Positions 28,271 to 64,000 of a stretch of 64,000 nucleotides of DNA are shown piece by piece. The stretch's first letter is position 1. Every line of letters begins with the position of its first letter. The notes beneath the pieces were generated by a model. That model had not been told where the DNA came from and made no database searches. It worked only from the letters and a program-made list of their open reading frames with translations. A program made the translations under genes and the position numbers. The stretch comes from Polytrichum commune (taxonomy: Eukaryota > Streptophyta > Polytrichopsida > Polytrichales > Polytrichaceae), in contig OX485808.1 of the NCBI GenBank assembly GCA_950295325.1, positions 9,612,501 through 9,676,500 on the forward strand, read 5' to 3'.

Positions 28271-29960
28271 TTCACTTGGCACTTTAATCACGCCTTCACA
28301 AAGTGGGTTATATCCTCCTTTATGCACCGCCAATGGTACCTCTTTGACACCATTCTATGGCGGTTGTTTCTTTCTCCTCTATGGCCGGCAATAGGACTAT
28401 CATATTCCTCCTTCAAAACCGATAGCCTCAACTTGCCTTGTGGCACATACACCCAACTTTGCTTGCACTTGAACAATCCGTCCACCAACTTAACCTCTTT
28501 GAGCACCTTGCTCTTGCGAAGCTCACCTAAAAGCTTTTGTGCTTCGGGGTAGTTAATTTACCCCTCCCGTATCTTGCATCACAAGTTTCCTTCGCCGGCA
28601 CACATTAGCCACAAGGTTTGGATGGTTCTCATTCCTTGGAATTCTTCCGATCTACTTCGCGCATCCGGCACCACATTTCCACGGTCCGGTTTGTGGATCA
28701 AATCCACCTTCTTAAGCGCCAAACTATCATGCCACCGCAATGACTTGGCGCTCACTTGCGCTTGTATGTCAAAATACTTTTAGGACACATTGCCCATGTA
28801 GACCTTTGCTTTGTGCGACCCCAAATAGTGTCGCCACATCTTCAAGCAATGCACTACGGCAAAGAAGTTTTTTTGTCATGAGTTGGTTGTCTTCTTTGAC
28901 AACCAACGAGCTTCATGCTCCCATATGCAATGGCCATCCATCTTACATCAACATTCCATCATTGGCAAAGTCACGCACCCCCATATGCACCTCAAAAGGT
29001 TTGTCAAGCTCCGCGAACTTGAGCACGGGCGGCGAAGAGAACTTGGCCTTAAGCTCCCCAAAGACTCGTGACAAACATCATCCCACTTTTGGGATAGCCA
29101 TTTCTTTCACAAGTCGGACAAGGTGGGACAACCATCGAGCTTCATGCTCTCATATGCAATGGCCATCCATATTGCATCAACAACCGCCAATGGTAAAGTC
29201 ACTCGCCCCCGTATGCGCCTCCAAAGGTTTATCAAGTTCCGCGACTTGAACACGGGCGGCAAAGAGAACTTCGTCTTAAGCTCCCAAAAGACTTGGGGAC
29301 ACGGCTCATCCCACTATTGAGATAGCCCTTTTTTTCACAAGTCGCACTAGGTTCGACAATCATTAAGCCTAATGCTCCCATATGCAATGGGCATCCATCT
29401 TGGATTAACATCCGCCAAAGGTAAAGTTACTTGCCCCCGTATACACCTCAAAAGGTTTGTCAAACTCCGCGAACTTGAGCACGGGCGGCGAAGACAACTT
29501 GCTCTTAAGCTCCCCAAAGACTTGGTGACAGGGCTCATCCCACTCTTGGGATAACCATATCTTTTACAAGCCGGACAAGGTTCGACAACCATGGAGCTTA
29601 ATACTCCCATAAGCAATGGTCATCCATCTTGGATCAACATCCGCCGATGGTAAAGTCCTTCGCCTCCATGTGCACCTCAAAATACTTATGAAAACCCGGA
29701 AACTTAACCACATCTTGTGAAAAGAACTTGTATTGAGCTCCCCAAAGGCTTGGTGACAAGGCTCATCCCGCTCTTGGGATAGCCATTTTCCTCAATAACT
29801 TGAGTAAGGTCCTAGCAACCTTCAAAAACTCTCCATTGAAGTGGTAGTTGTAGTTGGCTAGGCCAACAAATGACCTAAGTCATTTTTGAATGAAGGGCCA
29901 GTTCTCCTTTTGGATTGCCTTGACATTCTTCATGTTCGTCCACCAACTTCCTTTGTCACC
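28271..29960 (-). pseudogene. Zinc-binding region and RNase H reiterations (copy 4)
   Basis: The pre-integrase zinc-binding segment is at 28288-28506. The RNase H block is repeated four times in tandem (anchors ~29083, 29310, 29538 and 29767), then the RT-connection remnant. This is one of the two longest versions of the reiterated block. Confidence 0.65.
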
Positions 29961-35990: not shown

Positions 35991-37216
35991 ATTTCAAGGC
36001 AATCCAAGAGGAGAATTGGCCCTTGACTCAAAAAAGGCTTAGGTCATTGGTTGGCCTAGCCAACTACTACCACCACTTCATTCTAGATTTGTTTTAAGGT
36101 TGCTAAGACCTTACTCAACTTATTGAGGAAATGGCTATCCCAAGAGTGGGATGAGCCTTGTCACCAAGCCTTTGGGAAGCTCAAGAGCAAGTTCCCTTCA
36201 CAAGATGTGGTTAAGTTCCGGGTTTTCATAAGCATTTTGAGGTGCACATGGAGACGAAGGACTTTACCATTGGCGGATGTTGATCCACGATGGAGGACCA
36301 TTGCATATGAGAGCAATAAGCTCAATGGTTGTTAAACCTTGTCCGGCTTGTGCAAGAAATGGCTATCCCAAGAGTGGGATGAGCCGTGTCACCAAGCCAT
36401 TGGGGAGCTTAAGAGCAAGTTGTCTTTGCCGCCCGTGCTCAAGCTTGCGGAGTTTGCCAAACCTTTTGAGGTGCATACGGGGGCGAGTCACTTTGCCATT
36501 GGCGGATGTTGATCCACGATGGAGGACCATTGCATATGAGAGCAATAAGCTCAATGGTTGTTAAACCCTGTCCGGCTTGTGCAAGACATGGCTATCCCAA
36601 GAGTGGGTTGAGCCGTGCCACCAAGTCTTTGAGGAGCTTAAGACGAAGTTCTCTTCGCCGCCCGTGCTCAAGTTCGCGGAGTTTGACATACCTTTTGAGG
36701 TGCATACGGGGGCGAGTGACTTTATCATTGGTGGATGTTGATGTAAAAAAAAACAAAATGGCCATTGTATATGGGAGCTTGACGCTCGATGGTTGTCAAA
36801 GAAGACAACCAACTCATGACAAAGAACTTCATTGTCATAGTGCATTGCTTGAAGATGTGGCGACACTATTTGGGGTCGCACAAAGCAAAGGTCTACATGG
36901 ACAATGTGTCCTAGAAGTATTTTGACATACAAGCGCAAGTGAGCGCCAAGTCATTGCGGTCGCATGATAGTTTGGCGCTTATGAAGGTGGATTTGGTCCA
37001 CAAACCGGACCGTGTAAATGTGGTGCCGGATGCGCTAAGTAGACGGGAAGAGTTCCAAGCAATGAGAACCATCCAAACCTTGTGGCTAATGTGTGCCGGC
37101 GAAGGAAACTTGTGATGCAAGATACGGGAGGGGTAAATTAACTACCCCGAGGCACAAAAACTTTTAGGTGAGCTTGGCAAGAGCAAGGTGCTCAAAGAGG
37201 TTAAGTTGGTGGGCGG
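35991..37216 (+). pseudogene. RT-connection and RNase H reiterations of element C
   Basis: SLVGLANYYHHFI-type connection, then three copies of the ~230-bp SQEWDEPCHQAFG...FEVHTG block (anchors ~36130, 36361 and 36592). The last runs into CQRRQPTHDKELH and a GQCVLEVF segment. The pre-integrase segment (LLGELGKSKVLKEVKLVG) is interrupted by an LTR at 37217. Stops throughout. Confidence 0.65.
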
Positions 37217-45603: not shown

Positions 45604-46440
45604 AAATGGCTATCCCAAGAGTGGGGTGAGCCTTGTCACCAAGCCTTTGGGAAGCTCAAGAGCAAGTTCTCTTCACAAGATGTGGTTAAATTTCCGGGTT
45701 TTCATAAGCATTTTGAGGTGCACATGGAGGCGAAGGACTTTACCATTGGCGGATGTTGATCCAAGATGGATGACCATTGCTTATGGGAGCATTAAGCGCC
45801 ATGGTTGTCGAACCTTGTCCGGCTTGTGCAAGAAAAGGTTATCCCAAAAGTGGGATGAACCTTGCCACAAAGCCTTTGGGAAGCTTGAGAGCAAGTTCTC
45901 TTCACCGCCCGTGCTCAAGTTTGCGGAATTTGACAAACCTTTTGAGGTGCATACGGGGGCGAGTGACTTTACCATTGGTGGATGTCGATCCAAGATGGAT
46001 GCCCATTGCATATGGGACCATTAAGCTTAAAGGTGGTCGAACCTTGTGCGACTTGTGAACGAAATGGCTATCTCAAGAGTGGGATGAGCCTTGTCCCAAA
46101 GTCTTTGGGAAACTTAAGACAAAGTCCTCTTTACCACCCGTGTTCAAGTTCGCGGAGCTTGAAAAACCTTTTGAGGTGCATACGGGGGGCGAGTGACTTT
46201 ACCATTGGCGGATGTTGATGCAAGATGGATGGCCATTGCATATGAAAGCATGAAGCTCGATGGTTGTCCCACCTTGTCCGACTTGTGGAAGAAATGGCTA
46301 TCCCAAGAGTGGGATGATGTTTGTCACGAGTCTTTGGGGAGCTTAAAACCAAGTTCTCTTCGCCGCCCGTGCTCAAGTTCGCGGAGCTTGACAAACCTTT
46401 TGAGGTGCATACGGGGGTGAGTGACTTTGCCAATGGTGGA
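45604..46440 (+). repeat. About 229-bp tandem reiteration of an RNase H segment
   Basis: Four copies of a block that starts at TGGCTATCCCAAGAGTGGG and includes TTTTGAGGTGCATACGGGGG. Spacing is 228, 229 and 229 bp. Other copies of the family carry two to four units (copies 1 and 3: two; copy 2 and element C: three; copy 4: four). Confidence 0.75.
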
Positions 46441-47237
46441 TTATGTGTAATTGGATGGCCATTGCATATGGAAGCATGAAGCTCGATGGTTGTCAAAGAA
46501 GACAACCAACTCATGACAAAGAACATCTTTGGCGTAGTGCATTGCTTGAAGATGTGGCGACACTATTTGGGGTCGCACAAAGCAAAGGTCTACATGGACA
46601 ATGTGTCCTAAAAGAATTTTGACATTCAAGCGCAAGTGAGCGCCAAGTCATTGCAGTGGCATGATAGTTTGGCGCTTATGAAGGTGGATTTGATCCACAA
46701 ACCGGACCAAGGAAATGTGGTGCCGGATGCGCGAAGTAGACCGGAAGAGTTCCAAGCAATGAGAACCATCCAAACCTTGTGGTTAATGTGTGCCGGCGAA
46801 GGAAACTTGTGATGCAAGATACGGGAGGGGTAAATTAACTACCCCAAAGCACAAAAGCTTTTAGGTGAGCTTCGCAAGAGCAAGGTGCTCAAAGAGGTTA
46901 AGTTGGTGGACGGATTGTTCAAATCCAAGCAAAGTCGGGTGTATGTGCCACAAGGCAAGTTGAGGCTATCAGTTTTGAAGGAGGAATATGATAGTCCTAT
47001 TGCCGGCCATAAAGGAGAAAGAAGCAACCGCCATAGAATGGTCTCAAAGAGGTACCATTGGTGGTGCATAAAGGAGGATATAACCCACTTTGTGAAGGCG
47101 TGAATAAAGTGCCAAGTGAACCGAGCATCTTACCAAAAGCAAGGCGGTTTCTTGCAACCGTTGCCTATCCCGTCGGCGCCATGGCATAGTATGTGCATGG
47201 ACTTGATCACAAGTTTGCCGGAGTCACATGGGTATGA

Positions 47238-48884: not shown

Positions 48885-49441
48885 GAGCCACTAACACTAT
48901 ATTCGTTAAATTGAGACTTTTTGGGCATTTTGAGACATTCATAAAAATAAGAACAAGGATAAATGGAACACATATTGGAGAAAGTTGTAAGATGCGAACA
49001 CTTTGAAGCGGGTGTTTAGACCAAAAAACCCCATATATAACTCATATTTGTGATGGTTTAGGGTGGGCAACCCAAACCTTAGACCAAATTGAAGGGGAAA
49101 CCTTAAAACATTCATATTATTGCACACAAAATATTAGAGCTTGTACGAATATGGTTTAGGTAGGGCAATCCAAACCATAGATCTTATTGAAGGGTTAATA
49201 TGTTAACCAATATAATATGGCATACAAAATATTCCAAACTCATATTTGTGATGGTTTAGGTAGGGCAATCCAAACCTTAGACCATATGGAAGGGGAAATC
49301 ATATGACACTTATATTATTGCAAATAGAACATACAAAGTATGGCATGTAAAATGCATAGCATGCTAACACCTAAACATCCATTGGATAGTGCGACCCAAA
49401 ATGTTCTTGCCTATGGCCCAAAACCCTACGCCTACTATGGC
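48885..49441. repeat. About 100-bp imperfect repeats in AT-rich spacer
   Basis: A phrase starting ATGGTTTAGG(G)T(A)GGGCAA and ending in CCAAACC recurs at 49053, 49151 and 49251 (spacing 98 and 100 bp). No gene is seen. Each unit carries a GGTTTAGG...CCAAACC inverted pair, of the same total length as the 24-bp palindrome GGTTTGGG...CCCAAACC found in the 60.9-61.8 kb array. Confidence 0.55.
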
Positions 49442-49759
49442 CTATCTAGCCTCGGAGAGTGCCTCTTTTTCTTTTGCTTTTTTTTCTTTTGCCTCTTTTT
49501 CTTTTGCCTCTTTTTCTTTTGCTGCGGCTTCTTTTGCTCGCATTGCTTCAACATTCCTGAAAATCTCCGCCCCGCGACTATAGCCATTCTTGGGGTGACA
49601 GCCAACAATAACACATTTTGGATTCCGTCGGCCGCCCGAATTATACGACGAAGAATTCGAATACGATGAAGTGGACTGTCTTGCATTTCTGGTCATGGAG
49701 TAGAAACGCTCCAACTCGACGGACGGATCATCCCGCATAGGTTTACGGGCGGGAGCAAC
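49442..49759 (-). CDS. Terminal exon of an unrecognised minus-strand gene
   Basis: Acceptor GTTGCAG|GTTGCTCCC at 49760/49759; 106 codons including the stop. The encoded peptide has a Ser-rich stretch (STSSYSNSSSYNSGG), a NPKCVIVGCHPKNGY segment, then a coiled-coil-like Lys/Glu/Ala tail made of repeated KEKEA units. The tail comes from 15-bp tandem repeats (GCCTCTTTTTCTTTT on the plus strand). It joins in phase 0 to the exon at 50241-49888. Function unknown. Confidence 0.5.
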   Translation of the reverse strand, partial: VAPARKPMRDDPSVELERFYSMTRNARQSTSSYSNSSSYNSGGRRNPKCVIVGCHPKNGYSRGAEIFRNVEAMRAKEAAAKEKEAKEKEAKEKKAKEKEALSEAR

Positions 49760-49887
49760 CTGCAACGCGTGAATGCAAGAACACACGTGTTAGTTAAGGG
49801 AGGAAGACCCAAACGTGTCACACGTTCATTTTTTAAGTGCGGGATGATTGTAATGCGCGGTTAACCATGTTGGGGGGGGGGGTTCAC

Positions 49888-50241
49888 CTTGTCACCGGGG
49901 GCGTTCCCGTCGGAGTTGGCGAGGAGGGGCAAGGCGTCCCGCAAAGGAATAGGAAGGGTTCCACTCTTCGTTGGCCGAGCGTCCATCCGCAGCCGCCGTT
50001 GAGGTGTAATATGGCCGCCGGGTCGAGAGGGGGACGTCCGGACGCATTTGCGATTTATGCCCTTGAGCGGCGACGGGGACGCAGATCGCCGGAAGATTTG
50101 CTTGGGTGGGGGGCTATCGACGACGCCGGCGTCAATAGGCTCCTTGGAGTAGTCAATGGTTGACGCGGCGTCGTAAACAGTCTCGTAGAAGAAGCTCCCC
50201 AAGTTTGACTCGCTCACGATGTCAATCGAGGGATCCAAACG
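49888..50241 (-). CDS. Internal exon of an unrecognised minus-strand gene
   Basis: Acceptor CTCCAG|CGTTTGGATCCC after a T-rich tract; donor GACAAG|GTGAAC at 49888/49887. 118 codons, phase 0 at both ends. The product is Ser/Pro/Arg-rich with an acidic start (DIVSESNLGSFFYETVYDAA), like a disordered linker. No upstream partner exon is obvious. It could be an alternatively spliced 3' extension of the ParB/MTase/FCP1 gene, whose stop lies only 138 bp upstream (one weak phase-0 donor, CCT|GTAAAC, lies near 50489), or a separate gene. An intron of 128 bp separates it from the next exon. Confidence 0.45.
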
Positions 50242-50346
50242 CTGGAGCCAAAATTAAAACAAAACAAAACCCAAGGGAGGAGGGTTTGATAGAGCGCGTG
50301 AAAATCAAGATACATATGAAGCATATATTACACAAAGTGGGCGGGC

Positions 50347-50372
50347 ACACACACACACATACAAACACACAT
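50347..50372. repeat. (CA)n microsatellite
   Basis: CACACACACACACATACAAACACAC just downstream of the 50379 stop codon on the minus strand, so probably in the 3' UTR. Confidence 0.8.
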
Positions 50373-50378
50373 AGTGCC

Positions 50379-51191
50379 TCAAATGAGCTTGTTGAATTTC
50401 GCGTGTGAGAACAACTCTCTGTACAAATGGTCTCGTGGATCCAAGTATCTCTCGCCTATCGGATTGTTCCTAACAAAATTGTTTACAGGTAGCCCGCTAC
50501 CCCAGAGCGCCTGGAGGTATTTACTAAGGTCTAACAAAAATCGGTCCCGGACCTTCTCGACCGTCCATGTAGGGCAAACTATGAGGTTGGCCGTCGGGTT
50601 CAACATGTTCTTTGCGGCGCTGTCGTCCACCATGAGCGTGTTCTCGCGGGTGGGGCGGACGTCGTAGGGGACGCCTATCAAGGACGGACGTTGGTCCCAA
50701 AAAATGGGCTTCAAGACCTTGAGATATTGGGGGGAAGCGGGGTTGTTTGGTTTTTTGACGACTTTGCCGTCAGGTGTGTACAATATTCTACAGGCTTCTT
50801 GTGCTAGGACCATGCAGGGGGGCTCGATGCCCTTGAAGATGAACTCCACGACGGCATTGGTGTTCTCGGCCTTCATGGAGCTCCAGACGACCACCCACCA
50901 TCGTTGTTGGGCGATCTGGAGGAAGGTCCGAAGCCACGGGCGGAGGTGAACTAGTTTGCTCTTTATGAACGTGGGCGGCCCGTCGTAATTAGCGTCCTCG
51001 GGCTTGCAAAAGGGCACCGTGGGGGTCCTAGGGCAATGAACGCATTGGACGAGGACCCCGTTCAGGTCTAACACCAGGAATCGTTTCTTCGGCAGCGGGG
51101 GCGGGGCGGGTAAAACCGGGGGCGCCGCCGCGCTGCCCTCTCCGCTCCTTGGGGAAGAGCGTCGGGGAGCCGCTACGCTATGCTCCGAGCC
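50379..51191 (-). CDS. Exon 4: FCP1/NIF-type HAD phosphatase domain
   Basis: 270 codons plus TGA. After a proline-rich start, motif I reads FLVLDLNGVLV, motif II VVVWSSM and motif III LMVDDSAAKN. These match NLI-interacting-factor/FCP1-like HAD phosphatases (PF03031), with the terminal YLxxL...VNNFVRNNPIGERYLDP segment. In classical FCP1 motif I is DxDxT/V; here the second Asp is Asn. Some plant homologues also have DLNG; the proton donor would be missing, so catalysis is uncertain. FCP1 relatives act on phosphorylated C-terminal tails of RNA polymerase II; the substrate here is unknown. Confidence 0.72.
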   Translation of the reverse strand, partial: GSEHSVAAPRRSSPRSGEGSAAAPPVLPAPPPLPKKRFLVLDLNGVLVQCVHCPRTPTVPFCKPEDANYDGPPTFIKSKLVHLRPWLRTFLQIAQQRWWVVVWSSMKAENTNAVVEFIFKGIEPPCMVLAQEACRILYTPDGKVVKKPNNPASPQYLKVLKPIFWDQRPSLIGVPYDVRPTRENTLMVDDSAAKNMLNPTANLIVCPTWTVEKVRDRFLLDLSKYLQALWGSGLPVNNFVRNNPIGERYLDPRDHLYRELFSHAKFNKLI

Positions 51192-54100
51192 CTGCGGATA
51201 CGAGCGAGAGAAAACGGGGGCGACTTATGTCATGCTATGTCCAAACGAAGCATTAAGGAAACGAGCGTTCTCGGTGCAAACACAAAAGCATTTGATTCAT
51301 TTTGGAGGGGGTGCAACAAGGGATACAAGGGATACAAGAGCATACAAAATACATTCAAACACAATATACAAGTATATAGGAGTCAAAAATGGTGATTATA
51401 TTATATACAATGCTCTATGTACATCTTGATTGGGGGAGCCGCGTTGAACGATGCGTTCAAACTAGCCTACTTCTACATCTAGAAAAAATTGAAGAGACGG
51501 GCCGCCGTGATGAAGACTTCGTTGCAAAGCCGGGGGTAGGTGGACGAACGAATGGTCGCTGGGGGTGACGAAGGGCGCGAGTGCCGGGGGGGGCCTAAGT
51601 TCGTCCTAGCTAGGGGACACGACCAAGGCAACAAGTCAAAGACCCAGGAAGTTTGGGTCGACCGACCCAAACTGAGTGGGGTCAGTGCATTACCTCGCCT
51701 TGGTCGTGCCTTGACGACGTTGATGCCGGCATCGCGTGCGCTGCCCCACCTCTGTCACCGCCGCCTCCGACGACGCCGTCAGCCGCAACCTGCTCCTGCA
51801 AAGGCTGACTGTCAGGCCTTTGTCCCAACCCAACCTCCGCATGCGCATCATGCATTGGTTCATCGACTGGGTTAGGAGTAGAGGTATCACCAGGCCCTTG
51901 CGGGCCTTCAACATCTAGCATAGGCTCGTCGACCGGGGTCTGATGGGGGACGGGGTTTGGGTCGGCCGACCCAAACCCTGCTGCTTGGCGAGGGTCGCTC
52001 TGCGACGCTGCAACGTCGGCACTGTTTGGGTCGGACGACCCAAACATGTGGGGGTCGTCCCGCTGGTGGTGTGGGGGCAAGAGGATGGGAGGCCGGAGCG
52101 GGGGGGGTGCCAACGAGCTGGACGCTCCGGGGACGCGCCAAAGGTTTGGATCATCCACCTGCTGCACAGGCGCGTAAGGACGGGCGTGCGGCTGCAGCAA
52201 ATCCGCGAAGCTGAAGGAATGCTCCAACGCCGGCCGCGGGCGGATATCCTGTGGAGGGAAGCCTGCGGGCAAGTGAGGGAATGAACTCGGGGGAGCCATC
52301 ACCAATCCCTGCGCCAGCATGCCCTGGATCACTTGCGTGATGAGGTCCGCTTGGGACGGAGTTTGGGACATCGCCCTTTGCCGCTCCTGCTCCAACAGGA
52401 GAGCCCTCAACTCCGCGACTTCGTTGCGGACAGAGGGTTCCTCGGCGGCAGCCCTCTGCAGTCGCACACGCTGCTCCTCGTCTCGGAGCATTTTTGCGTT
52501 CGCCTCCTCCACGGTGAGGACCTCCGGTTTCACCCTCACATTCCCGGCGAACGCTCTGGGGGAGGCAGGATCAGACCTCAGCTTCTTGGCGAGTTCCATG
52601 TCGTCCTCGTCCTCGGAGCTTATTGCGATCGTCTCCTCCACCGCATAGTCCCCGTACAGCTTCTTCCCCTTCATCCTTCTACGCTCCCTGAAGGTGGCCG
52701 TCGCGTCCCTCGAGTACATATCCTTGGCGTCGTCCACCGTCAACGCGGGCACCAGCCTGCTCTGCGGCGTGGCAGGCCGCATGGCCTTCTTCCGCTGAGG
52801 GGCCTCGGATTCTTGAGTGAATCCTGTTGCCCCTTCCTCCACCTCCCCCTCCACTTTCTCTGCTTCCTCCTCCGCCTCCTCCTCGTCTTCCTCCCCCTCC
52901 TCCCCAACCTCGCCACCTGCTCCCATAGACGGATTGCCCGGATGCAACCCGATGAGCGGCTCTGGCAATTGAACGGGGGCCCGCATGGCGAATTCACCCG
53001 GGTTGATTCGCCTCGCAATATCCAAAGGATTCTCGCCCCCCTCGACGATCTCTTCGACGTAGGATCCGGGTATCCAGTCGAGGATGTCCATTCTCTTGGC
53101 CAGCGCCTTTTGGGTCCTGTAGAATTGAACATCGGCATCCTCCACATAGGAGTAGATGTTCAACCCAGACATCTGCACAATCAAAATCAATACTATTAGT
53201 AACACCAAATGAACATATAATGGAAAATGACTTCCAAAACAAAATAAGAATAGTTAGTTTGGGTCGCTCGACCCAAACTATGCATGGCCCTAGTTTGGGT
53301 CGCTCGACCCAAACTGTGCATGCCCCTAGTTTGGGTCGTTCGACCCAAACCGAACGTATAGGGACTTCTGGGTTTTCTGCTTACAATGGCTGCAAAAATC
53401 GGTTTGGACCCCCCGAAAACGTTGAAGATGCAGTCCCCTCTCTTCGTGAGGGTCCTCATCATCCGCAGGTAGAACTCCATGCGCAGCTCATCCGCGGGGT
53501 AGTTGGCGTACTTCGCCTCGTCATATAAGCTCCTGCTGGTACCCAACCCTTCTTGGACTTGGAAGAGCTTTTCCATCCTGGCTATGGGATGGTTTGGCAC
53601 CTTAACCAGCTCAGCTTTGTACACGAAGTACAAACACAGCACGTTGACGATCTTCGTCTTCTTGTCTTTCAGCGTGCTGTACGCCCCCTCCGCCGGTGCA
53701 GCAACGTAGTGAGATTTCGAGACGGCATACTCCGGCTGCAATTTGCGCACGATCTCGTAAACCTGCTCTGCCCTTCTGTCCTCGACAATCCAGAGCCAGA
53801 CGTCGACCTCCCTGAATTTGGGGCTGCCGTAGTCCACGAACTTCGACAAGAAAGGATCGTAAAAAGGGGTGCTCATAGTCCCCTCGAATGAGGCTCCAGG
53901 GATGTTCCTGAAGTCTATCATTCCGAAGGGGAAGCGGTCCCCGGCTCTAGTCCTGATCGCCTTCCTTGACTCAGAACCCGGCCAACCCTGGATCCTGAGA
54001 GGTTCGACAGTGACCATGTTGAATTGCGCATCGCCTTCGAAACTGACGATCTTCTTCTCCTTTATGAAGTTGGAGAAGGCCCGCACTGAGTGTTCGGGAA

Positions 54101-56305
54101 GCGCCCGGTTCCTCCCCCCCTTCACGAGCTTGGATCTGAGGAAGTCGTCTCCCGCCTCCCTCATGAGTGCCGCCATGGACGCACTGGTAAACTTATATTC
54201 GGCTTTGAAGGCCCTCCAGTGCGCCTCGTCGACCTCTCCGTCCACGATGAGCTTCTTCTCTGGCACAAGCTTGTGCAGCTCCTGGACGATGGTCGTCTTC
54301 TTCTTCCTGTTCTCCGTCCATTCCTTCATTGTGTAGCATGAAGGGACGAAGATCTTGGGTTTGGTGAAGACGATCTTAGGGTGGACCCAGCATCTCTTCG
54401 CCGTCGTCTCCACGTGTAGGATGTGGGACGCCGCTTTTCCCATCTCTGTCTCGGAGAGACCTTGAAGCGCTCTGAAGAACTCCCTCACCAGAGGCTTCAT
54501 TTGCTTGAAGCGCGTAGTCTGGTTGAAGAGCATGCCGGTGTCGGGGTCCATGAGGTCCCCCGTCTCGTGTTTTTCAAAAACACTCTTCCATCTTGCCCAT
54601 ACGGAATCGGACGCTGTGATCAAATAGATTTCTCCTCTCAGCTCGTTATACTTTTTCTGCTTGTGGCTAGCATTGTCGATCGAGGAGAATTTATTGATCA
54701 TTTGATATTTGAAGTCCTGCACAGGAAGACATTAGCACATGTTAGACAACACATAATGGAAAAACAAATGCAACAGCAGTTTGGGTCGAACGACCCAAAC
54801 TATGAACCTGGCGAAAACATCTTAACAATTTCAGAGTTTGGGTCGACCGACCCAAACTATGAACCTGGGGACAATATCAAAATAATTTCAGAGTTTGGGT
54901 CGACCGACCCAAACTATCAACCTGGCGATGACAACAAAACAATGTAGGAGTTTGGGTCGATCGACCCAAACATACTCACCTCCCATTTGGGGTTCTTGTC
55001 TTTAGCATTCTCCCTTTCCTTGGGAGGCCTTCCATAAAACTCCCACACCTCCCTCGAGGCCATGATGTTTCTGATCCACGATGCCTGATAGGCCCTCTTT
55101 TTGTTCCCCATGTTGAAGAACCTGGAGATGTCGCTGAGGACCGTCTCGTTGTCCGACCAAACCACCAAAGCCTTCCAAACTTTTAGCTTCTCCTTCTGGT
55201 TGTTCGGGTCGTCCCACTCGGTCATCAGCTGGATTTTTTTCGAGGCCTCCACACTGTGCTGCCCGTCAATCAGCCAGAAGTCTCCTTTAGAGATTGCCGG
55301 CCACATCTCAGGCGTCGGCATTCTTTTCAGCCCTTGTGGCATGACAACAATTGTCTGCCTGTCGTCCTTGAACTGCCCGCCCAAGATTTGAGCGACCATC
55401 CAGTCGACGTAGGCGTCCTCCTTGGCTCGGACGCACTTCTCTGGTGGCGCAAGGTGGCACTGCGCAATGTTGACCTCGAATTTGAAGTCCCTGCCCATGA
55501 AGAAGCAGTGCAGGCATTTTGTCTCGAAGTTGTTGTTTATTTTTTGTATTTCGCCTGCATCCACCTCTTGGCCAGGCTTCGGCATCCGGAGCTCCGGGGA
55601 AACAGGCTCGTCAGTCATCCCCGATGACTCTCTTCCCCTCTTGGAAGGGGTCGTCTGACGGCTTCCTGATGGCGTTGGCGTCTCGCTGTCAGCCGGCGTT
55701 GTTGTAGTGCTCGTCCGTCTCGAGTCTGCAGGGACCGCCCGCGGTTTCCTCACAGTTTGTGGTCTTGAGGACCCTGCGCCTTCTTCCGTCGTTGCCTTCC
55801 GCCTCACAGGCTGCTGCGTCTTGGGTTTGCTTTGCAGCGCCTTGTTGAGAACCGTGATAGCCTGTTTTAACTTCGTGAACCTGCTCGCAACCTTCGTGTT
55901 CGTTACACTACCATCTATGAATATGGCCTCCGGTTTTATGGTTTCAGGGTCGACGCAAGTCTCCTTGGCGTACAGGGGGTCGAAGGGCTCGGAGAACTGG
56001 TGCATGAACATGTGGACGTTCTGCACGGCGGAGTTCTCCAGTATCACGTCTACGTAGTCCCCGAGAGACTGGACGGACGCAACCTCCCATCCCGTCAGCG
56101 TTGCCCAGGTGTGCTGCTCGTGGGTCCCCACCTTCACCACGAATAGCAGCTTGAACATGGATGCCTTCACCACCTGAACGGACCATGCCAAAACGACGCC
56201 ATCTTTTGGGACGTAAGAATCGTCCTGTGGAGTTTCATACTCCTGCCAAAGGTGGTCTGGCGCGAGCATGAACCACCTTTCACCTGGTCTCTTTTTAGGG
56301 GCCAT
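50379..56305 (-). CDS. ParB-like / DNA-methyltransferase-like / FCP1-type phosphatase fusion protein
   Basis: Four coding exons on the minus strand: 56305-54980, 54716-53385, 53172-51694 and 51191-50379. Donors are GAG|GTGAGT, ATT|GTAAGC and GAG|GTAATG; acceptors are TGTGCAG, TGTGCAG and CCGCAG. All junctions are phase 0, each exon length is a multiple of three, and the spliced frame is open for about 1649 codons to TGA at 50379. The ATG at 56305 follows an acceptor (GATTGCAG|ATG), so the 5' leader is spliced; an upstream coding exon cannot be excluded. Domains in order: ParB/DGQHR-like (~255-360), MTase-like (~700-930), acidic/proline-rich linker (~940-1420), FCP1/NIF phosphatase (~1415-1640). 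Exons are GC-rich against AT-rich introns. Function is unknown; a DNA-binding or chromatin role is inference. Confidence 0.65.
51192..51693 (-). other. Intron 3 with one palindromic site
   Basis: 502-bp intron (GTAATG...CCGCAG), AT-rich in its middle, with a GGGATACAA tandem near 51316-51336. One intact site TTTGGGTCGACCGACCCAAA at 51652-51671, 22 bp inside the donor end. Confidence 0.65.
51694..53172 (-). CDS. Exon 3: MTase C-edge and long disordered linker
   Basis: 493 codons. After the MTase edge come a Glu-rich acidic run (EEGEEDEEEAEEEAEKVEGE, ~1000), a Lys/Arg patch, an acidic SSEDEDDME stretch, a coiled-coil-like Glu/Arg/Leu helix and a proline-rich tail. Two palindromic sites (51956-51975, 52025-52044) are in frame here and read FGSADPN and FGSSDPN. 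The linker probably separates the DNA-related half from the phosphatase. Confidence 0.6.
51956..51975. repeat. Palindromic site in coding exon 3 (centre GC)
   Basis: TTTGGGTCGGCCGACCCAAA, a perfect 20-bp palindrome. On the minus strand it encodes FGSADPN in frame with the fusion protein. Confidence 0.85.
52025..52044. repeat. Palindromic site in coding exon 3 (centre GA)
   Basis: TTTGGGTCGGACGACCCAAA; encodes FGSSDPN on the minus strand. Lies 69 bp from the previous site, so both are in the same reading phase. Confidence 0.85.
53173..53384 (-). other. Intron 2 with three palindromes at 36-bp period
   Basis: 212-bp intron. Sites at 53258, 53294 and 53330 (centres CT, CT, TT) are exactly 36 bp apart with similar spacers (ACTATGCATGGCCCTAG-like). 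They form a small tandem array filling over half of the intron. Confidence 0.75.
53385..54716 (-). CDS. Exon 2: beta-class DNA-methyltransferase-like region
   Basis: 444 codons (protein ~443-886). Near its end, YPADELRMEFYLRMMRTLTK runs into RGDCIFNVFGGSKPIFAAI. With the start of exon 3 (GLNIYSYVEDADVQFYRTQ), this aligns with the C-terminal block of N6/N4 DNA methyltransferases: a xPxxL helix, GDxVLDPFxGSGTTxxAA (motif I, AdoMet binding), then a GxxxxGxExDxxY strand. FGGSKP replaces F-GSGT, and no DPPY motif is obvious, so methylation activity is doubtful. The ParB-then-methylase order is common in prokaryotic and phage proteins. Confidence 0.5.
54717..54979 (-). other. Intron 1 with four palindromes at 57-bp period
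   Basis: 263-bp intron. Sites at 54780, 54837, 54894 and 54951 (centres AA, AC, AC, AT) have an exact 57-bp period with a shared TATGAACCTGG spacer. The last site starts 9 bp inside the donor end. Confidence 0.78.
54980..56305 (-). CDS. Exon 1: N-terminal region with ParB/DGQHR-like segment
   Basis: 442 codons from ATG (MAPKKRPGERW). Residues 1-130 are a globular part of unknown type. Residues ~165-245 are Ser/Thr/Pro/Arg-rich and probably disordered. Residues ~262-270 read CLHCFFMGRD. At ~345-358, DFWLIDGQHSVEASKK resembles the DGxHRxxA signature of ParB/Srx-like nucleases and DGQHR proteins. It is preceded by a VVMPQGL strand, as in ParB folds, but the Arg of the motif is Ser. GmrSD/DUF262-type domains share the signature, so the exact family is open. 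Confidence 0.55.
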
Positions 56306-56471
56306 CTGCAATCCAAGAAATCGAAACTGTGAGTTTCGGTCGATCGACCCAAAGTATTGCAATGTGCATTTAACATTTGGAGGATTGACCCAAACATTTA
56401 CTTAATTTTCAAAGTCGTTTTAAAAGATCTTTTAGATTTTAAAGTGTGGTTTAGGTGGTCACCCTGTAATG

Positions 56472-57671
56472 TTTGGGTCGAGCGACCCAAACATGATGAG
56501 GCTGCAAATTTAGGTATCTCAACACATTCATTTCAGACTGCAATGTTTGGGTCGAACGACCCAAACAATTACTTAATTTTCGAAGTTCTTTTATATTTTA
56601 CAATGTGGTTTAGTTCTTCTCCTTGTAATGTTTGGGTCGAGCGACCCAAATATGTTAGGCTGCAAATTTAGGTAGCTCAACCCATTCATTTCAGACTGCA
56701 ATGTTTGGGTCGAACGACCCAAACAATTACTTAATTTTCAAATTTCTTTTTTATTTTACAATGTGCTTTAGTTCTTCTCCCTGTAATGTTTGGGTCGACC
56801 GACCGAAACATGTTAGGTTGCAAATTTAGGTAGCTCAACCCAATCATTTCAGACTGCAATGTTTGGGTCGAACGACCCAAACATTCACTTAATTTTTGAA
56901 GTTCTTTTATATTTTACAATGTGGTTTAGTTCTTCTCCCTGTAATGTTTGGGTCGAGCGACCCAAACATGTTAGGCTGCAAATTTAGGTACCCAAACCCA
57001 GTCATTTCAGACTGCAATGTTTGGGTCGAACGACCCAAACAATTACTTAATTTTCGAAGTTCTTTTATATTTTACAATGTGGTTTAGTTCTTCTCCCTGT
57101 AATGTTTGGGTCGAGCGACCCAAATATGTTAGGCTGCAAATTTAGGTAGCTCAACCCATTCATTTCAGACTGCAATGTTTGGGTCGAACGACCCAAACAA
57201 TTACTTAATTTTCAAAGTTCTTTTATATTTTACAATGTGGTTTAGTTCTTCTCCCTGTAATGTTTGGGTCGAGCGACCCAAATATGTTAGGCTGCAAATT
57301 TAGGTAGCTCAACCCATTCATTTCAGACTGCAATGTTTGGGTCGAACGACCCAAACATTCACTTAATTTTCAAAGTTCTTTTATATTTTACAATGTGGTT
57401 TAGTTCTTCTCCCTGTAATGTTTGGGTCGAGCGACCCAAACATGTTAGGCTGCAAATTTAGGTACCTCAACCCAGTCATTTCAGTCTGCAATGTTTGGGT
57501 CGAACGACCCAAACATTTACTTAATTTTTGAAGTTCTTTTATATTTTACAATGTGGTTTAGTTCTTCTCCCTGTAATGTTTGGGTCGAGCGACCCAAACA
57601 TAATGAGGCTCCAATGTTTGGGTCGCTCGACCCAAACAAGAGGCTGCAATGTTTGGGTCGAACGACCCAAA
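56472..57671. repeat. 158-bp tandem array, two palindromes per unit
   Basis: Sites alternate between centre AG (56472, 56631, 56947, 57105, 57263, 57421, 57579) and centre AA (56546, 56704, 56862, 57020, 57178, 57336, 57494), with inter-site steps of ~73 and ~85 bp. 56789 has centre AC with one arm mismatch. The right end has two extra closely spaced sites (57617 CT, 57652 AA). Spacers are AT-rich (CAAATTTAGGTAGCTCAACC and TTACTTAATTTTCGAAGTTC types). Confidence 0.88.
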
Positions 57672-57780
57672 CATTTAGTTCATTTTAGGCTGCAATTCAA
57701 ATATTTATTATATTTTAATATGAGTTTGGGTCGTCTCCCCAAACTACTGTGTTTCCAGATGCATGTTTAATGCTTGGGCA

Positions 57781-57810
57781 ACATATACAATGCTTATGCA
57801 TTGTATATGT
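57781..57810. repeat. Perfect 13-bp-arm hairpin
   Basis: ACATATACAATGC, loop TTAT, then GCATTGTATATGT. Lies near the 5' end of the leader intron, with no sequence similarity to the TTTGGGTCG palindrome. Confidence 0.8.
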
Positions 57811-57865
57811 AACAGGAACCTAAAGGGAATGATGCAAATTGTGTGCACTGATGCAAATTGCTTAC

Positions 57866-58500
57866 CTTGTCTTTCAAACTCTTGAAAGCTGCTCTCACAA
57901 TCTGCTTCTTACAACCAGACTCAGAAACTCTGTTGTGGCACTAAAGAACAACTCTCACAAAGATCTCAGAAACACAATGAATCTCTCAAGCACCCTAAAA
58001 CTTTCTCACAAACCCCCTGATTCTTGCAAACTCAGGCCTAATTTGAAAGACCTCTACATTTCTATCACACTCGACCGTGCTCACTTCTACTCAACCTAAA
58101 ATCACTCCATGCATGAATTTTACAAAACAAGTAAGGAGTTCAACACAATAAACCGCTCCGAACTCACTCAAAGCTAACACTCTGGACCAAGAAGAGAGAA
58201 TAAGAAGAGGAAGACAATAACACGAGGAATAGAATGAGAGAAGAGGAGGAGAAGCATCAGAGAGGAGGAGAGGAATGAAGGAGAAAGAAGAATGAAGGGA
58301 AGCGGCGCGACCAAGACAAAAGCAAAAGGTGCGAGAGGAAGCGCTTGGCGCGGCGCTATGGAAAGCGGCGGCGGCGTTTCCAAGAGCGGCGCTTGGCGCG
58401 GAGGAAGAGAGGAAGAAAAAAAGAGAAAGGAAAAAGAGGAGGGGAGAGAAGGAGAGAGCGGAAGGGGTCACCCTAAACCCTCGAATCCGGGCCATTAGAT
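57866..58500 (-). promoter_or_regulatory. Probable 5' leader exon(s) of the fusion gene
   Basis: On the minus strand this is CT-rich (58200-58450), typical of plant 5' UTRs. It then runs through several short ORFs to the donor GACAAG|GTAAGC. The last exon could also code (a frame reading RAAFKSLKDK is open back to an in-frame stop at ~57940), but no clear start codon joins it. No convincing TATA box was found. Confidence 0.4.
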
Positions 58501-58519
58501 TGCGCCGGGCCCATCAACG

Positions 58520-58620
58520 GCTCAGAAGCCTCGCGGGCCAACACCTTGCCAGGTGTCGACACCTCCTTGGTTTAGGTGGTTGCCCGCGAGGCTTGTGGTG
58601 TTGACACCTGCCACCCTAGG
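58520..58620. repeat. GC-rich inverted repeats upstream of the fusion gene
   Basis: AAGCCTCGCGGGC (58526-58538) pairs perfectly with GCCCGCGAGGCTT (58582-58594). Between them is the palindrome AGGTGTCGACACCT at 58551-58564, and GGTGTTGACACCTG follows on the right. The tract could be a promoter-proximal structure or the remnant of a foldback element. Confidence 0.65.
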
Positions 58621-59247
58621 GAGATTGCCTTCCTGGTTGTCCTTGCCCCTAGGTGCGGGACATAGGAGGGCCGGCGCCTCTCTTGGCCGCCCGGCCCCGG
58701 CCTTCTAACCCGCTATTCATTAGCGGCAATTCAATACCACTCAAAAACCTACGTGGACTAAGGTATTCCACAAAATTAACACCATCACCAACTCATATTT
58801 TAATGGTGTTCAATTGAATGATCACCCGTTGGAATTGATAACATCGTTGAATGTAGCCATTATCGTTTTGGTGTATGAATAATGTAATTTATGGAATCAT
58901 ATGAGAGTGTTACAAAGTCTAAGAGGAGTAAGTCATAATTATATTGCAATCCACAAAGGCAATTACACGGTGCAATAATATAAATATGGTAACCATTCAC
59001 ATGGTTAACAGTTTAGGATTATGTATTGTAATTTATATGATGGTTGTTGGTAGAGGACAATGCTCTAGTCTATAATGGATACCCTAACAAGTAGCATTAG
59101 AGTGAACATTAATATATGTACTTAGAAGTTCACATTTGAAGTACATGGGAGAAACAAATGATTACAAATGTATCTACTGCAACCCCATGGAGTTCACATA
59201 TCATATGAAGTCATTTAAACATTCAGTTTGATGTTTGATGATGCCTG

Positions 59248-59280
59248 AACCCTAAACCCTAAACCCTAAACCCTAAACCT
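59248..59280. repeat. Interstitial plant-type telomeric repeat
   Basis: About four and a half tandem CCCTAAA units ending in a CCTTAAAC variant. Too short for a telomere; typical of scattered interstitial (TTTAGGG)n tracts in plant and green-algal genomes. Confidence 0.85.
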
Positions 59281-60093
59281 TAAACAACACAAACCATAAC
59301 TGGATGGCACATAGGTCAAATGACATGGGCCTTGGTGCTTGTAGTTTCCAATACAAATGTATATTGTCATCACAACATCCTAATTCACAAACGTGAAAGA
59401 TGGATGTGTGGTTTTTCACGAATGAACGCACTAAAGGAAATAAACGATATTGTGCTCACAAGTAGGTGATACAATATTAACCTATAACCTTGTCACCTGG
59501 TAAGAAAAGCATAAGAACTAGATTATAATGGATAGGATGTTGTTCATGTTAACATGTTATTTGGAATAGTGAAATATTATATATTAATTTAAAGTAGATT
59601 TCATGTTGTGAATGATATGAGGACATACCTTTTGAACTTTGCATGTTTTGCTCACACACATTGGTAGAGTTCAAGGGACTTCACGATAGGTTCAAACATC
59701 CTTGGAAGATTGAACGTGCCAAATGTCATTTGTGGTTTAGGGTTCCATTAATGACTTCCACATAGGTACTAGGTTATTGTCACACTTGGAGTCTTGAGGA
59801 TGAAGCAATATTGGGTGCACACATTACAACACAACATATGTTCTTTTAATTAGCAGAAATTGAAAGTTGGCCAAATTATTCAAGTTTGTCATGGCATTAA
59901 TTATTTGTTTTCAAAATATAAGTCCTCATGTGAGAGTCTAAATAATAGCATTAACTATTATATTTAGTGACTTTTAGTATATGAAGTTTTATAATACATG
60001 CACATCTTTTGTCAATATATTGTTTGAAATATACCATAATGTTTGACTACAAGTAGAGTAAAACCCCTTAATAGATATAATCTTACATATTGT

Positions 60094-60228
60094 CATAGGG
60101 TTATTGGTATTTAGTGTATGCGTTCATATGTAGTGTATCAAAACCTTTATATCCTTTTTAGTTATATGATAGTTAGTGTTTGATACACTTAAAACGAACG
60201 CATACACTTCCCATTACTAACCCTATGA
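60094..60228. repeat. Foldback inverted repeat, ~50-bp arms
   Basis: The left arm (CATAGGGTTATTGGTA ... GTGTATGCGTTC ... GTGTATCAAAAC) and right arm (GTTTGATACAC ... GAACGCATACAC ... ATTACTAACCCTATG) are imperfect reverse complements around a ~35-bp AT-rich loop. MITE-like or foldback structure without obvious TSD. Confidence 0.7.
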
Positions 60229-60599
60229 GAGTAAGTAACATTAAATGTAAACTCAAACACTAAATATCCACTATGGTGATATATGGAAGTTACATATAGG
60301 GATTTAGTATTAGTAAGGATGTGAGAAAAATATACAACAATGATAAAAGGAGAAAGGAGATGGCAATAGGGAAGGTGGTGGTGTATTCATGTATAAAACT
60401 AATTATGAAAGAGTTGAAGAATAGTGTTGACCAAGTTAGGGTGGTAACAACTTTAAATATATGTTGAATTATTCATTTGGTGGTTGGGGCAACGAAGAGC
60501 CAAGCTAAATATACATTCTCTATTATTGACAAGAAGCGGGAAATTGAGTCAGAAGGTTTGAATTAACCTCCAAAGGAGACCAGGTGGGAAAGGCATCCA

Positions 60600-60800
60600 A
60601 AGAGGATGCCCAAAGCGGAGGCGGGTAGTATAAAGAGCCCAACCCCCCCAAATGCTGGTTCTTTCTTTCATGTCCCAATCCTGAGATTGCTGCAAGCTCT
60701 CTAAGTTGGAGCTGTAATACACGGTTTGTATACGCTTCCATTCATGAGCAGCTAATTACAACAAGCATCTATGAGTTCAGTTGTCCCAAATAGGTTATAA
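60600..60800 (+). promoter_or_regulatory. Probable core promoter and leader for the plus-strand gene
   Basis: TATAAAG at 60629-60635 in a GC-rich context (GGCGGGTAGTATAAAGAGCC), followed by ~150 bp resembling a 5' UTR. Candidate donors GAGCT|GTAATA (~60713) and AATAG|GTTATA (~60793) would put the following 78-bp array into a leader intron ending at TGTGTAG (62016). Confidence 0.45.
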
Positions 60801-60850
60801 ATAGATTAATAGAGCATCACCCGAATAAATAGGCGGATTTTGCGGAATTG

Positions 60851-61807
60851 TTTGGGTCGGTCGACCCAAACCCAGCCTTACAGTGTGGGTGCTCTCTGTA
60901 TTGAGCCAGAACCCATCCTGCCTCAAGGTTTGGGTCGATCGACCCAAACCCAGCCCTACAGTGTGGGTGCTCACTGTTGTGAGCCTGAACCCATCCTGCC
61001 TCATGGTTTGGGTCGATCGACCCAAACCCAGCCCTACAGTGTGGGTGCTCACTGTTGTGAGCATGAACCCATCCTGCCTCATGGTTTGGGTCGGTCGACC
61101 CAAACCCAGCCTTACAGTGTGGGTGCTCTCTGTTGTGAGCCTGAACCCATCCTGCCTCATGGTTTGGGTCGATCGACCCAAACCCAGCCCTACAGTGTGG
61201 GTGCTCACTGTTGTGAGCCTGAACCCATCCTGCCTCATGGTTTGGGTCGATCGACCCAAACCCAGCCCTACAGTGTGGGTGCTCACTGTTGTGAGCCTGA
61301 ACCCATCCTGCCTCATGGTTTGGGTCGGTCGACCCAAACCCAGCCTTACAGTGTGGGTGCTCTCTGTTGTGAGCCTGAACCCATCCTGCCTCATGGTTTG
61401 GGTCGATCGACCCAAACCCAGCCCTACAGTGTGGGTGCTCATTGTTGTGAGCCTGAACCCATCCTGCCTCATGGTTTGGGTCGATCGACCCAAACCTAGC
61501 CCTACACTGTGGGTGCTCACTGTTGTGAGCCTGAACCCATCCTGCAAAAAGGTTTGGGTCGCTCGACCCAAACCCAGCCCTCTAAGTGTGGGTGCTCCCT
61601 GTCGTGACCCAAAACCCATTCTGCCAAAAGGTTTGGGTCGCTCGACCCAAACCCAGCCCCTAAGTGTGGATGCTGTCTGTAGTGAGCCTAAACCCATCCT
61701 GCCAGAAGGTTTGGGTCGCTCGACCCAAATCCAGCGCCTAAGTGTGGGTGCTCTCTGTATTGAGCCTGAACCCATCCTCCCAAAAGGTTTGGGTCGCTCG
61801 ACCCAAA
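60851..61807. repeat. 78-bp tandem array with 13 palindromic sites
   Basis: Sites start at 60851, 60929, 61007, 61085, 61163, 61241, 61319, 61397, 61475, 61553, 61632, 61710 and 61788: period 78, once 79. Centres are GT, AT, AT, GT, AT, AT, GT, AT, AT, then CT four times. Copies 1, 4 and 7 also share CAGCCTTACAG and GCTCTCT variants, so the first nine copies form a three-unit (234-bp) higher-order repeat. Spacers (TGTGGGTGCTC, AACCCATCCTGCC) are unrelated to those of the other arrays. Confidence 0.92.
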
Positions 61808-62021
61808 CCCAGCCTCTAAGTGTGGTTGGGATCTGGGTGCCGGTGTGGCCACTGGCCTTCCGAAACCTTTGCAAGCCCAATGGCATAGCAGTCATATGAA
61901 CTTGTATGAGCACTGAGTATTTGCAATTTTGTTTATATATGATGGTTTTTTTGTTCTTCGATTTGAACCTACAATTTTTGTGATTTTAAGACAATGTTCA
62001 ATGTTCATGTGTGTAGGCAGA

Positions 62022-64000
62022 ATGGATGGGTTTAGTGAAATAGGGGATTGGTCATCTGATGACATGGCCACTTGGCCATCTGCATCTGATGATGACCTAG
62101 ACATTGTCGGGGAGGCTACTATGGCTGACAGTGCGGATGAAGATCATTTGGATTTACCTTCGTCTTCCGTACCGCAGTGTCCCATTGTTGAATGTACGGG
62201 ACTTTCAAGGGCTTCGTGGGTGAATTTGGAGGTGATACTTCTTAACGATAGTGGAGTTGTTGTGGCGGAGGGGATTTGCCGTAACACCCATCCGCAAGAT
62301 TGCATTGATGAAAACCCGCTTGGCACTGAGGACGTTGGGGTTGTCATATTGGAGTCGGTCGTTCATTCCGAGGTGGATCCCACTCATAGGTTCTCCCTCC
62401 GCAGGTGGCCATTGAGGAATGTCACAATTGATGGAGTTAGCTTGCGTGAACATGAGCAACGACACATGCAAATCGAAAAGGAGGTGCAATCAAACATGCG
62501 GCCGCGCAAGGGTCAAAGAAAGTACGATACATTGGCACGTCCTGCTCCGTCTGCAACTGATTGTAAACGTCAAAGGTTGCTCGGGGAGGAGTCCATTAGA
62601 GAAGTTGCCACAAAGGATTGTTGTGTGCATCGTTGTTGCCAATTGTTTCCAAGGGATAAATTGAAGGTCATCCGCGAAGAAATGTGGCTTGGAGATTTCC
62701 GTCTAAGATCCACAAGAAAACTTGATGTCCATAGGGCGATACATGTGAATGGGACGGGTCGCAAGGTCATCACCATTGAAAGCATAGACGTGTGTTGTAA
62801 GGCATGGTACACCATTCACGGTGTGTCGAAATCGGACTTTTATAGACAAGCTGCTTATGCCAAGGAAGGCCGCCGGTCCCGTCACCATGGTAACGTGGGT
62901 TTAAAGAAGCCTAGGGAAGCAACAAGGCAAGCAACGGCCACTCTAGCAACCATCATTGTCCCTCTTGCCGATGCAATGCCGCACAAAACACGCACACTCA
63001 CAACCGGTGAAAAGGTTGTGGAGAAAGTTCTTCCCACAGGCACAAAATGGAAAGACATATTGTTGGACGTTAATGCAGTTGGCGAGAAGATTGGGTTGGA
63101 GCCAATTTCATTGTCAAAATTGAGTGCAATCAAGAAACAAAACTTTAGCGAATACATTACAAAAAGACGAGGGGACAAATTTGCCAGGTGCTCTAATTGC
63201 GAGAAGTTGAAGCGCCTCCGGGATGCACACACGATGGGCACCGAGTCATATGCAGCGCATCAATTGAACTATTTCAAGCACGTAAACATGCAAGAGGCAC
63301 ACCGTAATGATTACTACACAAATAGAGCTTTGTCCATCTCCAGGCCCTTGGAGGTTCTTACGGTCATCCATGACAAAATGGACCATGCCAAAACAGCCTC
63401 CCCATGTTTTGCAAATCGAATCAAGGCCACGGATGGGTTTTTCAAGTTGCCTGTATCGGTTACAGGTGAACTTCGAAACAATGTCATGACATACCCTAAA
63501 TGTTGTTGTATTTTATTCCGTGATGTACTGGAGAACATGGATTCCTTCATAATGGTTTATTCATACATAGATGCTAATCACGTTGGGTTGGCATTGCAGG
63601 AATGATTGCACATGGACACGGTGATGTCAAATTTGCCCATTATGCTCTTGATTTGTATCCAGCGGATTCAAACCACACGATAGGATCATTTGCAAGGCTT
63701 TTACGTGATTTAGAGAAACCACCAGCCTATTCTTCAGGATTGTTATTTGAGAACACGGGTTCAACACCTTTATATGAAGCGGTGTTGGATGGAAAAGATG
63801 TATGCTTGCATTCGTTGCCCGAGCCACCCAATGAACCCGTGATTGCCAAGAAGTTGCCTCCAACTTTGCGTGTCCAATTGGACAATTGTGCCAAGGACAA
63901 TAAAAGCAGATATGTATTTGCATATTGGTCGTTGTTGGTTGCGAAAGGCATTTTCAAGGAGGTTTTTGTGTCCTTCCTATTGGTAGGCCACACGCACGAT
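62022..64000 (+). CDS. DUF7869-type protein (RNase-H-like, transposon-associated), partial
   Basis: Starts at ATG 62022 (MDGFSEIGDWSSDD), six bases after a TGTGTAG acceptor, and runs off the window. The N-terminal third is acidic. Cys/His-containing segments follow: CVHRCCQLFPRDKL (~210-225) and ARCSNCEKLKRLRD (~390-405). The C-terminal part reads GHGDVKFAHYALDLYP, HTIGSFARLLRDLEK, LRVQLDNCAKDNKSRYVFAY and VSFLLVGHTHD. This is the QLDN...NK...R/F...VGHTHxD pattern I associate with DUF7869 proteins, multi-copy in plants, algae and animals and possibly transposase-derived. The frame breaks near 63585. An 80-nt intron (63520-63599: GTGATG donor, GCTAATC branch-like motif, TTGCAG acceptor) restores it with 1-nt phase. 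The alternative is a single-base frameshift. At least 633 aa. Confidence 0.6.

Follow-up and report, generated by a model that had tools for sequence, protein, structure and literature searches.

The window analysed here is a 64,000-nucleotide stretch of the Polytrichum commune genome (contig OX485808.1, forward-strand positions 9,612,501 to 9,676,500; C6:9612501-9676500 in our numbering), in which a palindrome, TTTGGGTCGNNCGACCCAAA, occurs in many copies. These palindromes are parts of DNA transposons. In the window they lie within one 16,726-bp element (family 1), and they recur in a second transposon family, a context that had been missed by a preliminary description of the same DNA. Family 1 carries two divergent genes: a DUF7869 gene (the presumed transposase) and a second one, here called the accessory gene. 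With a probability of roughly 0.55, a DNA-binding protein encoded by the transposon uses the palindrome as its operator and works as an anti-silencer.

According to this proposal, the binder would be encoded on the minus strand by the accessory gene (51.7-56.3 kb), to which a phosphatase exon at 50.4-51.2 kb perhaps belongs. Two domains are predicted for the encoded protein, one ParB/Srx-like and the other resembling a DNA methyltransferase but probably devoid of the customary catalytic motif. A dimer of this protein would bind TTTGGGTCG-NN-CGACCCAAA within the accessory introns and in arrays upstream of both transposon genes. The bound protein may then keep the element transcribed despite host silencing, in the manner of VANC in VANDAL elements. 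The second family would employ the same site, together with an accessory gene built along similar lines. That the accessory protein is the binder is our inference, drawn from the site and the similar gene that two transposons with unlike ends have in common and from the two candidate domains, whose folds are those of DNA-binding proteins; its dimeric state, and an outcome of anti-silencing in place of ordinary promoter control, are inferred likewise.

A pattern scan of the window found 39 exact sites spanning 51652-61807 (0.00 expected). When up to three mismatches were allowed, one-mismatch palindromes were added at 56334 and 56789 and a three-mismatch palindrome at 49381. The preliminary description had reported 39 intact copies, two copies with a mismatch in one arm and no exact copy in the first 51 kb, all of which was reproduced, while its minimum of eight central dinucleotides became nine on counting. 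Its clustering within ~10 kb stands for the exact sites of the window, but the motif is not restricted to this region. The whole-genome scan that it had recommended returned 9,731 copies in the assembly (G000; 407.8 Mb, 64 contigs) and none for the reversed pattern. Viral contigs contained no match to the palindrome, and 257 Gb of prokaryote genomes gave a single match, which is not above chance (about 4 by our estimate).

Of the 39 exact sites, 36 are found in four tandem arrays (unit lengths 36, 57, 158 and 78 bp), and the flanks of the palindromes differ from array to array; the other three sites are solitary. The element and its sites are arranged as follows.

48889-48892: 4-bp target site duplication (TSD) CACT at the left end; its partner is L010:1619-1622.
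48893-64000, continuing to L010:1618, no strand assigned: family-1 transposon, 16,726 bp (blastn boundaries common to copies c1, c2 and c3; ends; TSDs).
48893-48920, plus strand: left 28-bp terminal inverted repeat (TIR); its right partner, L010:1591-1618, is outside the window.
51652-51671: solitary palindrome, accessory intron 3; both arms unchanged in c2 and c3.
51956-51975: palindrome in exon 3 (window scan; copy comparison).
52025-52044: palindrome in exon 3 (window scan; copy comparison).
53255-53350: 36-bp array with three palindromes, intron 2.
54778-54971: 57-bp array with four palindromes, intron 1.
56334-56353: one-mismatch palindrome just 5' of the accessory ATG.
56424-57686: 158-bp array upstream of the accessory gene, with 16 exact palindromes and a mismatched one (56789).
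60850-61825: 78-bp array upstream of the DUF7869 gene, with 13 palindromes.

The exact sites are thereby distributed over intron 3 (one), exon 3 (two), intron 2 (three) and intron 1 (four) of the accessory gene and the regions upstream of the accessory gene (16) and of the DUF7869 gene (13). Such a layout could also be read as a set of transposase-binding sites that serve mobility, like the subterminal repeats of other DNA transposons: there are many sites per element and one array adjoins the DUF7869 gene. This is unlikely, as the outermost exact sites lie 2,759 and 3,811 bp inside the element ends, the TIRs are free of the palindrome and the presumed transposase of the second family has no DUF7869 match. 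In contrast, the subterminal transposase-binding repeats of the En/Spm type cluster next to the TIRs.

The element boundaries come from an alignment of the window to the copies c1, c2 and c3, three further loci rich in palindromes on contig C1 (L012-L020). The TSDs, read by eye, are different in each of the four copies (CACT in the window, ACTT, AAGG and ATAA). Copy c1 is 98-99.8% identical to the window copy along its length, arrays and one insertion excepted, while c2 and c3 show 75-92% identity in stretches of at least 150 bp. The intergenic region (~56.4-62.0 kb) has no alignable stretch of at least 150 bp in c2 or c3; four plant-type telomere repeats (CCTAAAC) are found within it, at 59251-59278. 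For exon 2 of the accessory gene, 95 scored matches with 90-100% identity were obtained among 1,233 first-look candidates, and 69 of the 95 are free of an internal stop by our count. The many near-identical copies suggest recent activity of family 1. Two more family-1 pieces lie ~14 kb downstream (L010-L011, window coordinates 80015-84000), both opening with the right-end repeat in reverse orientation. Just within the left end, 98-bp repeats (49039-49298) hold an imperfect dyad, GGTTTAGGTAGGGCAATCCAAACC, that resembles the palindrome; perhaps it serves as a subterminal site or represents a decayed relative.

The array units change from copy to copy (46, 32 and 64 bp in c2; 36, 46, 39 and 121 bp, among others, in c3), and the palindrome is their constant part. 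The three solitary sites were compared one to one. Each has an exact counterpart in c2 and c3 with 18 of 18 arm bases identical, while the centres agree in only 1, 1 and 0 of 2 bases and the 100-bp flanks are 58-74% alike. CpG counts provide a second view. Outside the exact sites, the arrays of the window contain 2 CpGs against 59.7 expected (78-bp array), 5 against 26.9 (158-bp array) and 2 against 4.4 (57-bp array), the 78-bp array of c1 2 against 79.7, the arrays of c3 13 against 69.4 and those of c2 10 against 39.6, with a weak effect in the second-family array (11 against 16.1); these figures are descriptive, since array units are mutual copies. Inside the exact sites, the same arrays (window 78, 158 and 57 bp, c1, c3, c2, second family) hold 26, 32, 8, 34, 28, 16 and 18 CpGs, counts that alone prove nothing because an exact site has two CpGs by definition. 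The arrays that are nearly emptied of CpG retain their exact sites, namely 13 in the 78-bp array of the window and 16 of 17 in the 158-bp array.

Ordinary satellite amplification, in which a functionless palindromic unit is spread by tandem duplication, would agree with the 36 of 39 sites in tandem arrays and with the variation of these arrays between copies. It is highly improbable in view of the palindrome that units of unlike sequence have in common, the perfect arms of the solitary sites amid diverging flanks and the scarcity of CpGs around the sites.

The spacing between the half-sites is strongly preferred. In the genome scan, in which spacing 2 was compared with spacings 3-20, 9,731 sites have a spacing of 2 and only 172 in total one of 3-20. 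Among the matches listed of these 172, all have spacing 11 and look like one repeat. This is a dispersed 29-bp palindrome, mostly TTTGGGTCGAGCAWWWTGCTCGACCCAAA, in which the half-sites of the 20-bp palindrome stand 11 bp apart (e.g. C1:1020528-1020556).

The central dinucleotide, described as free in the preliminary description, turned out to be restricted. Pyrimidine-purine (YR) centres were found in 38 of the 9,731 sites, all of them CA/TG with no TA and no CG, and in none of the 146 sites of the fetched regions. An A as tenth base is missing from both half-sites in 669 of 9,731 (6.9%), compared to 56% (9/16) if the centre were random. No probability is attached to this bias as many copies are clonal; the gap is nonetheless large. 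The bias suggests contact or shape readout at the centre. The same results bear on the other proposal of that description, a serine recombinase crossover site with a 2-bp core. A dyad around a 2-bp centre is what such an enzyme would use, yet Pfam detected no recombinase in the element's eight main open frames that fall within the window, neighbouring sites carry unlike central bases, YR steps are avoided at the centre and the sites are placed in introns and upstream regions. This explanation is extremely improbable.

Further evidence comes from relatives of the accessory protein. Two protein searches yielded 64 homologues (metagenomic relatives), all nameless as to function, of which 51 have readable flanks, i.e. 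at least 10 residues read outside the exons ("tails"). In one of three reading frames, 21 of the 51 tails contain the canonical site and 9 a variant, the variant patterns having been drawn up once the tails had been inspected; 21 contain neither. Shuffled tails gave no match to the canonical site. In a motif-free palindrome test, from which five relatives (P0114, P0121, P0128, P0129 and P0130) were omitted, 39 of 58 tails scored, against a shuffled mean of 19.4 and a maximum of 28 in 200 runs. From our reading of the amino acids, P0005 and P0006 have paired changes at the fourth left-arm base and at the base facing it in the dyad, and P0007 has such a pair at the seventh. A site for a dimeric DNA-binding protein, as already proposed in the preliminary description, is favoured by these two-arm changes as well as by the perfect dyad, the preferred 2-bp spacing and the arms, whose DNA sequence is conserved even in an exon. 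In the 407.8-Mb genome the two-arm form TTTCGGTCG/CGACCGAAA, the sole alternative form searched there, has no copies. The relative P0002 found no match in viral contigs.

The palindromes could also fold as RNA hairpins that act in splicing, stability or small-RNA production, and 10 of the 39 window sites, 8 of them intronic and 2 exonic, do belong to the part of the accessory gene that is transcribed. This role is quite unlikely: 29 of the 39 sites are upstream of start codons, the centre rule is not predicted by a hairpin, and the one arm change checked that would preserve pairing (TTTCGGTCG with CGACCGAAA) is absent from the genome.

The second palindrome-bearing transposon was found at loci L021-L025, among the first 100 genomic sites listed. 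It is complete once (L024:1945 to L025:4288, 12.3 kb) and has 61-bp TIRs at 87% identity that begin 7 bp inside, with a TSD of 9-10 bp (one copy). Its minus-strand gene, the presumed transposase, has no DUF7869 match in Pfam, a SWIM finger below threshold and no MULE domain. Mutator-like elements have a TSD of about 9 bp and a Mutator-type transposase; the second family may be Mutator-like, and the two transposon families are apparently unrelated. Palindromes are located between two open frames of the minus-strand gene, where an intron is likely, and also upstream of a plus-strand gene that diverges from it. The latter displays a DGNHR motif which we read as like the ParB/Srx one, and its joined exons reach N6_N4_Mtase (PF01555) with an E-value of 5.6e-4 and 20.4 bits, below the 26.7 cut-off.

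A host transcription factor site, taken up by both families as a promoter or enhancer element, would account for the upstream and intron placement and for the sharing between the two families. Placement by element covers the first 100 listed sites (out of the 9,731, the other 9,631 lying beyond it): 81 belong to the three copies of family 1 and the remaining 19 to loci of the second family, where two are in a nested stretch beside an array. All of these sites are thus within copies of the two families or nested beside an array, which speaks against a host factor. Moreover, both arms have changed in relatives whose gene still retains the site, a pattern better matched by co-evolution with a partner that the element encodes. 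A host site is a possible, though rather doubtful, explanation.

The genes of family 1 were modelled as follows.

50379-51191, minus strand: accessory gene exon 4, NIF/FCP1-type phosphatase domain (PF03031, E 4.5e-15; in-frame splice model; dN/dS 0.17-0.18).
51694-53172, minus strand: accessory gene exon 3, 493 aa, with two in-frame palindromes inside (splice model).
53385-54716, minus strand: accessory gene exon 2, 444 aa (splice model; dN/dS 0.06-0.07).
54980-56305, minus strand: accessory gene exon 1, 442 aa (splice model).
62022-63465, plus strand: DUF7869 gene exon 1 (splice model; 68 homologues, 30-95% identical; dN/dS 0.19-0.27).
63600-64000, continuing into L010, plus strand: DUF7869 gene exon 2 (PF25273, E 2.8e-27; translation).

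The phosphatase exon could instead be a separate gene. NIF/FCP1-type phosphatases can act on RNA polymerase II tails, and one that does so would be striking transposon cargo. For DUF7869, relatives with ~35-46% identity occur in the mosses Physcomitrium and Ceratodon, and no literature was found among the open-licence papers searched. Together with the telomere repeats, these moss relatives point to a streptophyte genome. The 68 DUF7869 homologues gave no match to three motif patterns, and the structure model of one relative was poor (mean pLDDT 55.7) and was left unused.

For the accessory protein, the candidate domains come from a structure model of the relative P0001. In a Foldseek search it resembled ParB/Srx-like and DNA-adenine-methyltransferase-like domains, the latter over ~180 residues; the absence of a family from the fold matches does not speak against it. 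The ParB/Srx-like part would correspond to ~55100-55486 in exon 1 and the methyltransferase-like part to ~53385-54044 in exon 2. Neither window exon 1 nor the exon of the second family was assigned a ParB family by Pfam, even at E-values as high as 10, and a PDB sequence search with the exon-2 profile and the methyltransferase-like exons of the second family gave no relevant match. DPPY, or more generally (D/N/S)PP(Y/F/W), is the catalytic motif of DNA N6-adenine methyltransferases. At the presumed position of this motif, DFRxxP is invariant in all eight sequences of alignment A1. As DFRxxP seemingly replaces DPPY, methyltransferase activity appears doubtful.

Several points weigh against the proposed anti-silencing operator. 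The Foldseek E-values for the P0001 model are weak (best 0.12) and the model contains a read-through intron. Pfam assigned no methyltransferase family to window exon 2, and hhalign detected no significant similarity between the accessory proteins of the two families. Neither motif is found in the 21 tails mentioned above, which include those of all the distant relatives (P0016-P0018, P0115-P0118, P0122 and P0132), and a second P0005 site is altered in one arm only. The six arm comparisons of the solitary sites amount to three sites against one other lineage because c2 and c3 are close. The element is less depleted in CpG (observed/expected 0.79) than the repeats outside it in the window (0.57 on the left, 0.54 on the right), which may reflect only coding content or youth. 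Finally, a host protein could be the binder instead.

The closest parallel for an anti-silencing operator is VANDAL21 of Arabidopsis. There, VANC21 binds a motif in VANDAL21 introns and in intergenic and terminal non-coding regions and removes methylation; the targets evolve by tandem repeats and differ between families (PMC5735166). Shared with family 1 are thus an element-encoded accessory gene, a short motif repeated upstream of the transposase as well as in intronic and intergenic DNA, and tandem motif arrays that differ between related copies. The motif described there, however, is the 9-base YAGTATTAY, compared to an 18-base dyad with 2-bp spacing here, and VANC contains DUF1985 and DUF287 (PMC5735166), neither of which was found in Pfam scans of the accessory exons. 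Family 1 further differs from VANDAL21 by its DUF7869 gene, its 4-bp TSDs and one site common to two transposon families. Given the long dyad and the lack of VANC domains, the accessory protein is not a member of the VANC family; by analogy, it may work like VANC.

A further comparison is with Sola transposons, whose transposase is of the DDD type. They have been described with 4-bp TSDs, some copies of >15 kb and presence in Physcomitrella (PMC10741241). Family 1 agrees in its TSDs (4/4 copies), its TIR length, which is within the reported range, and its size above 15 kb (PMC10741241), and DUF7869 proteins occur in Physcomitrella as well, which makes a likeness by description.

The ParB-like fold of the P0001 model, which is that of the CTPase/Srx domain, resembles ParB, Noc and KorB. 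The parS site is a palindromic recognition site, as is the palindrome here. Unlike these proteins, the accessory protein has no Pfam ParB match and its ParB-like part, encoded by a transposon of a eukaryote, would be fused to a methyltransferase-like domain. That second domain shares its fold over the ~180 residues with N6-adenine methyltransferases (M.BceJIV, CcrM, MTA1), from which it apparently differs by DFRxxP in place of DPPY. As a more tentative extension, one might envisage a portable self-recognition module of ParB-like clamp, catalytically altered DNA-adenine-methyltransferase fold and operator, exchanged between unrelated transposon superfamilies in a streptophyte lineage. Such a protein would be loaded at the arrays, spread in a ParB-like manner and bar silencing over 12-17 kb.

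Sequence-specific detail of how transposons escape silencing is known for few systems, VANC being one, and no earlier account of a palindrome/ParB-methyltransferase anti-silencing transposon system was found in the open-licence literature. If the proposal is true, this would be a second system, with another fold, a clean dyad and nearly ten thousand natural copies, implying that sequence-specific anti-silencing evolves repeatedly. It would become testable how one protein guards a long element from few sites, and whether unrelated transposons can have a binding site and its protein in common. Such a eukaryotic binder of the ParB-methyltransferase-like type could also serve as an epigenome tool.

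Outside the transposon, 229-bp tandem repeats are present in the window at 28898-29788, 36128-36742 and 45604-46494, which in our reading repeat a coding stretch of a Gypsy-like retrotransposon. The GC skew of the window changes sign near 32 kb.
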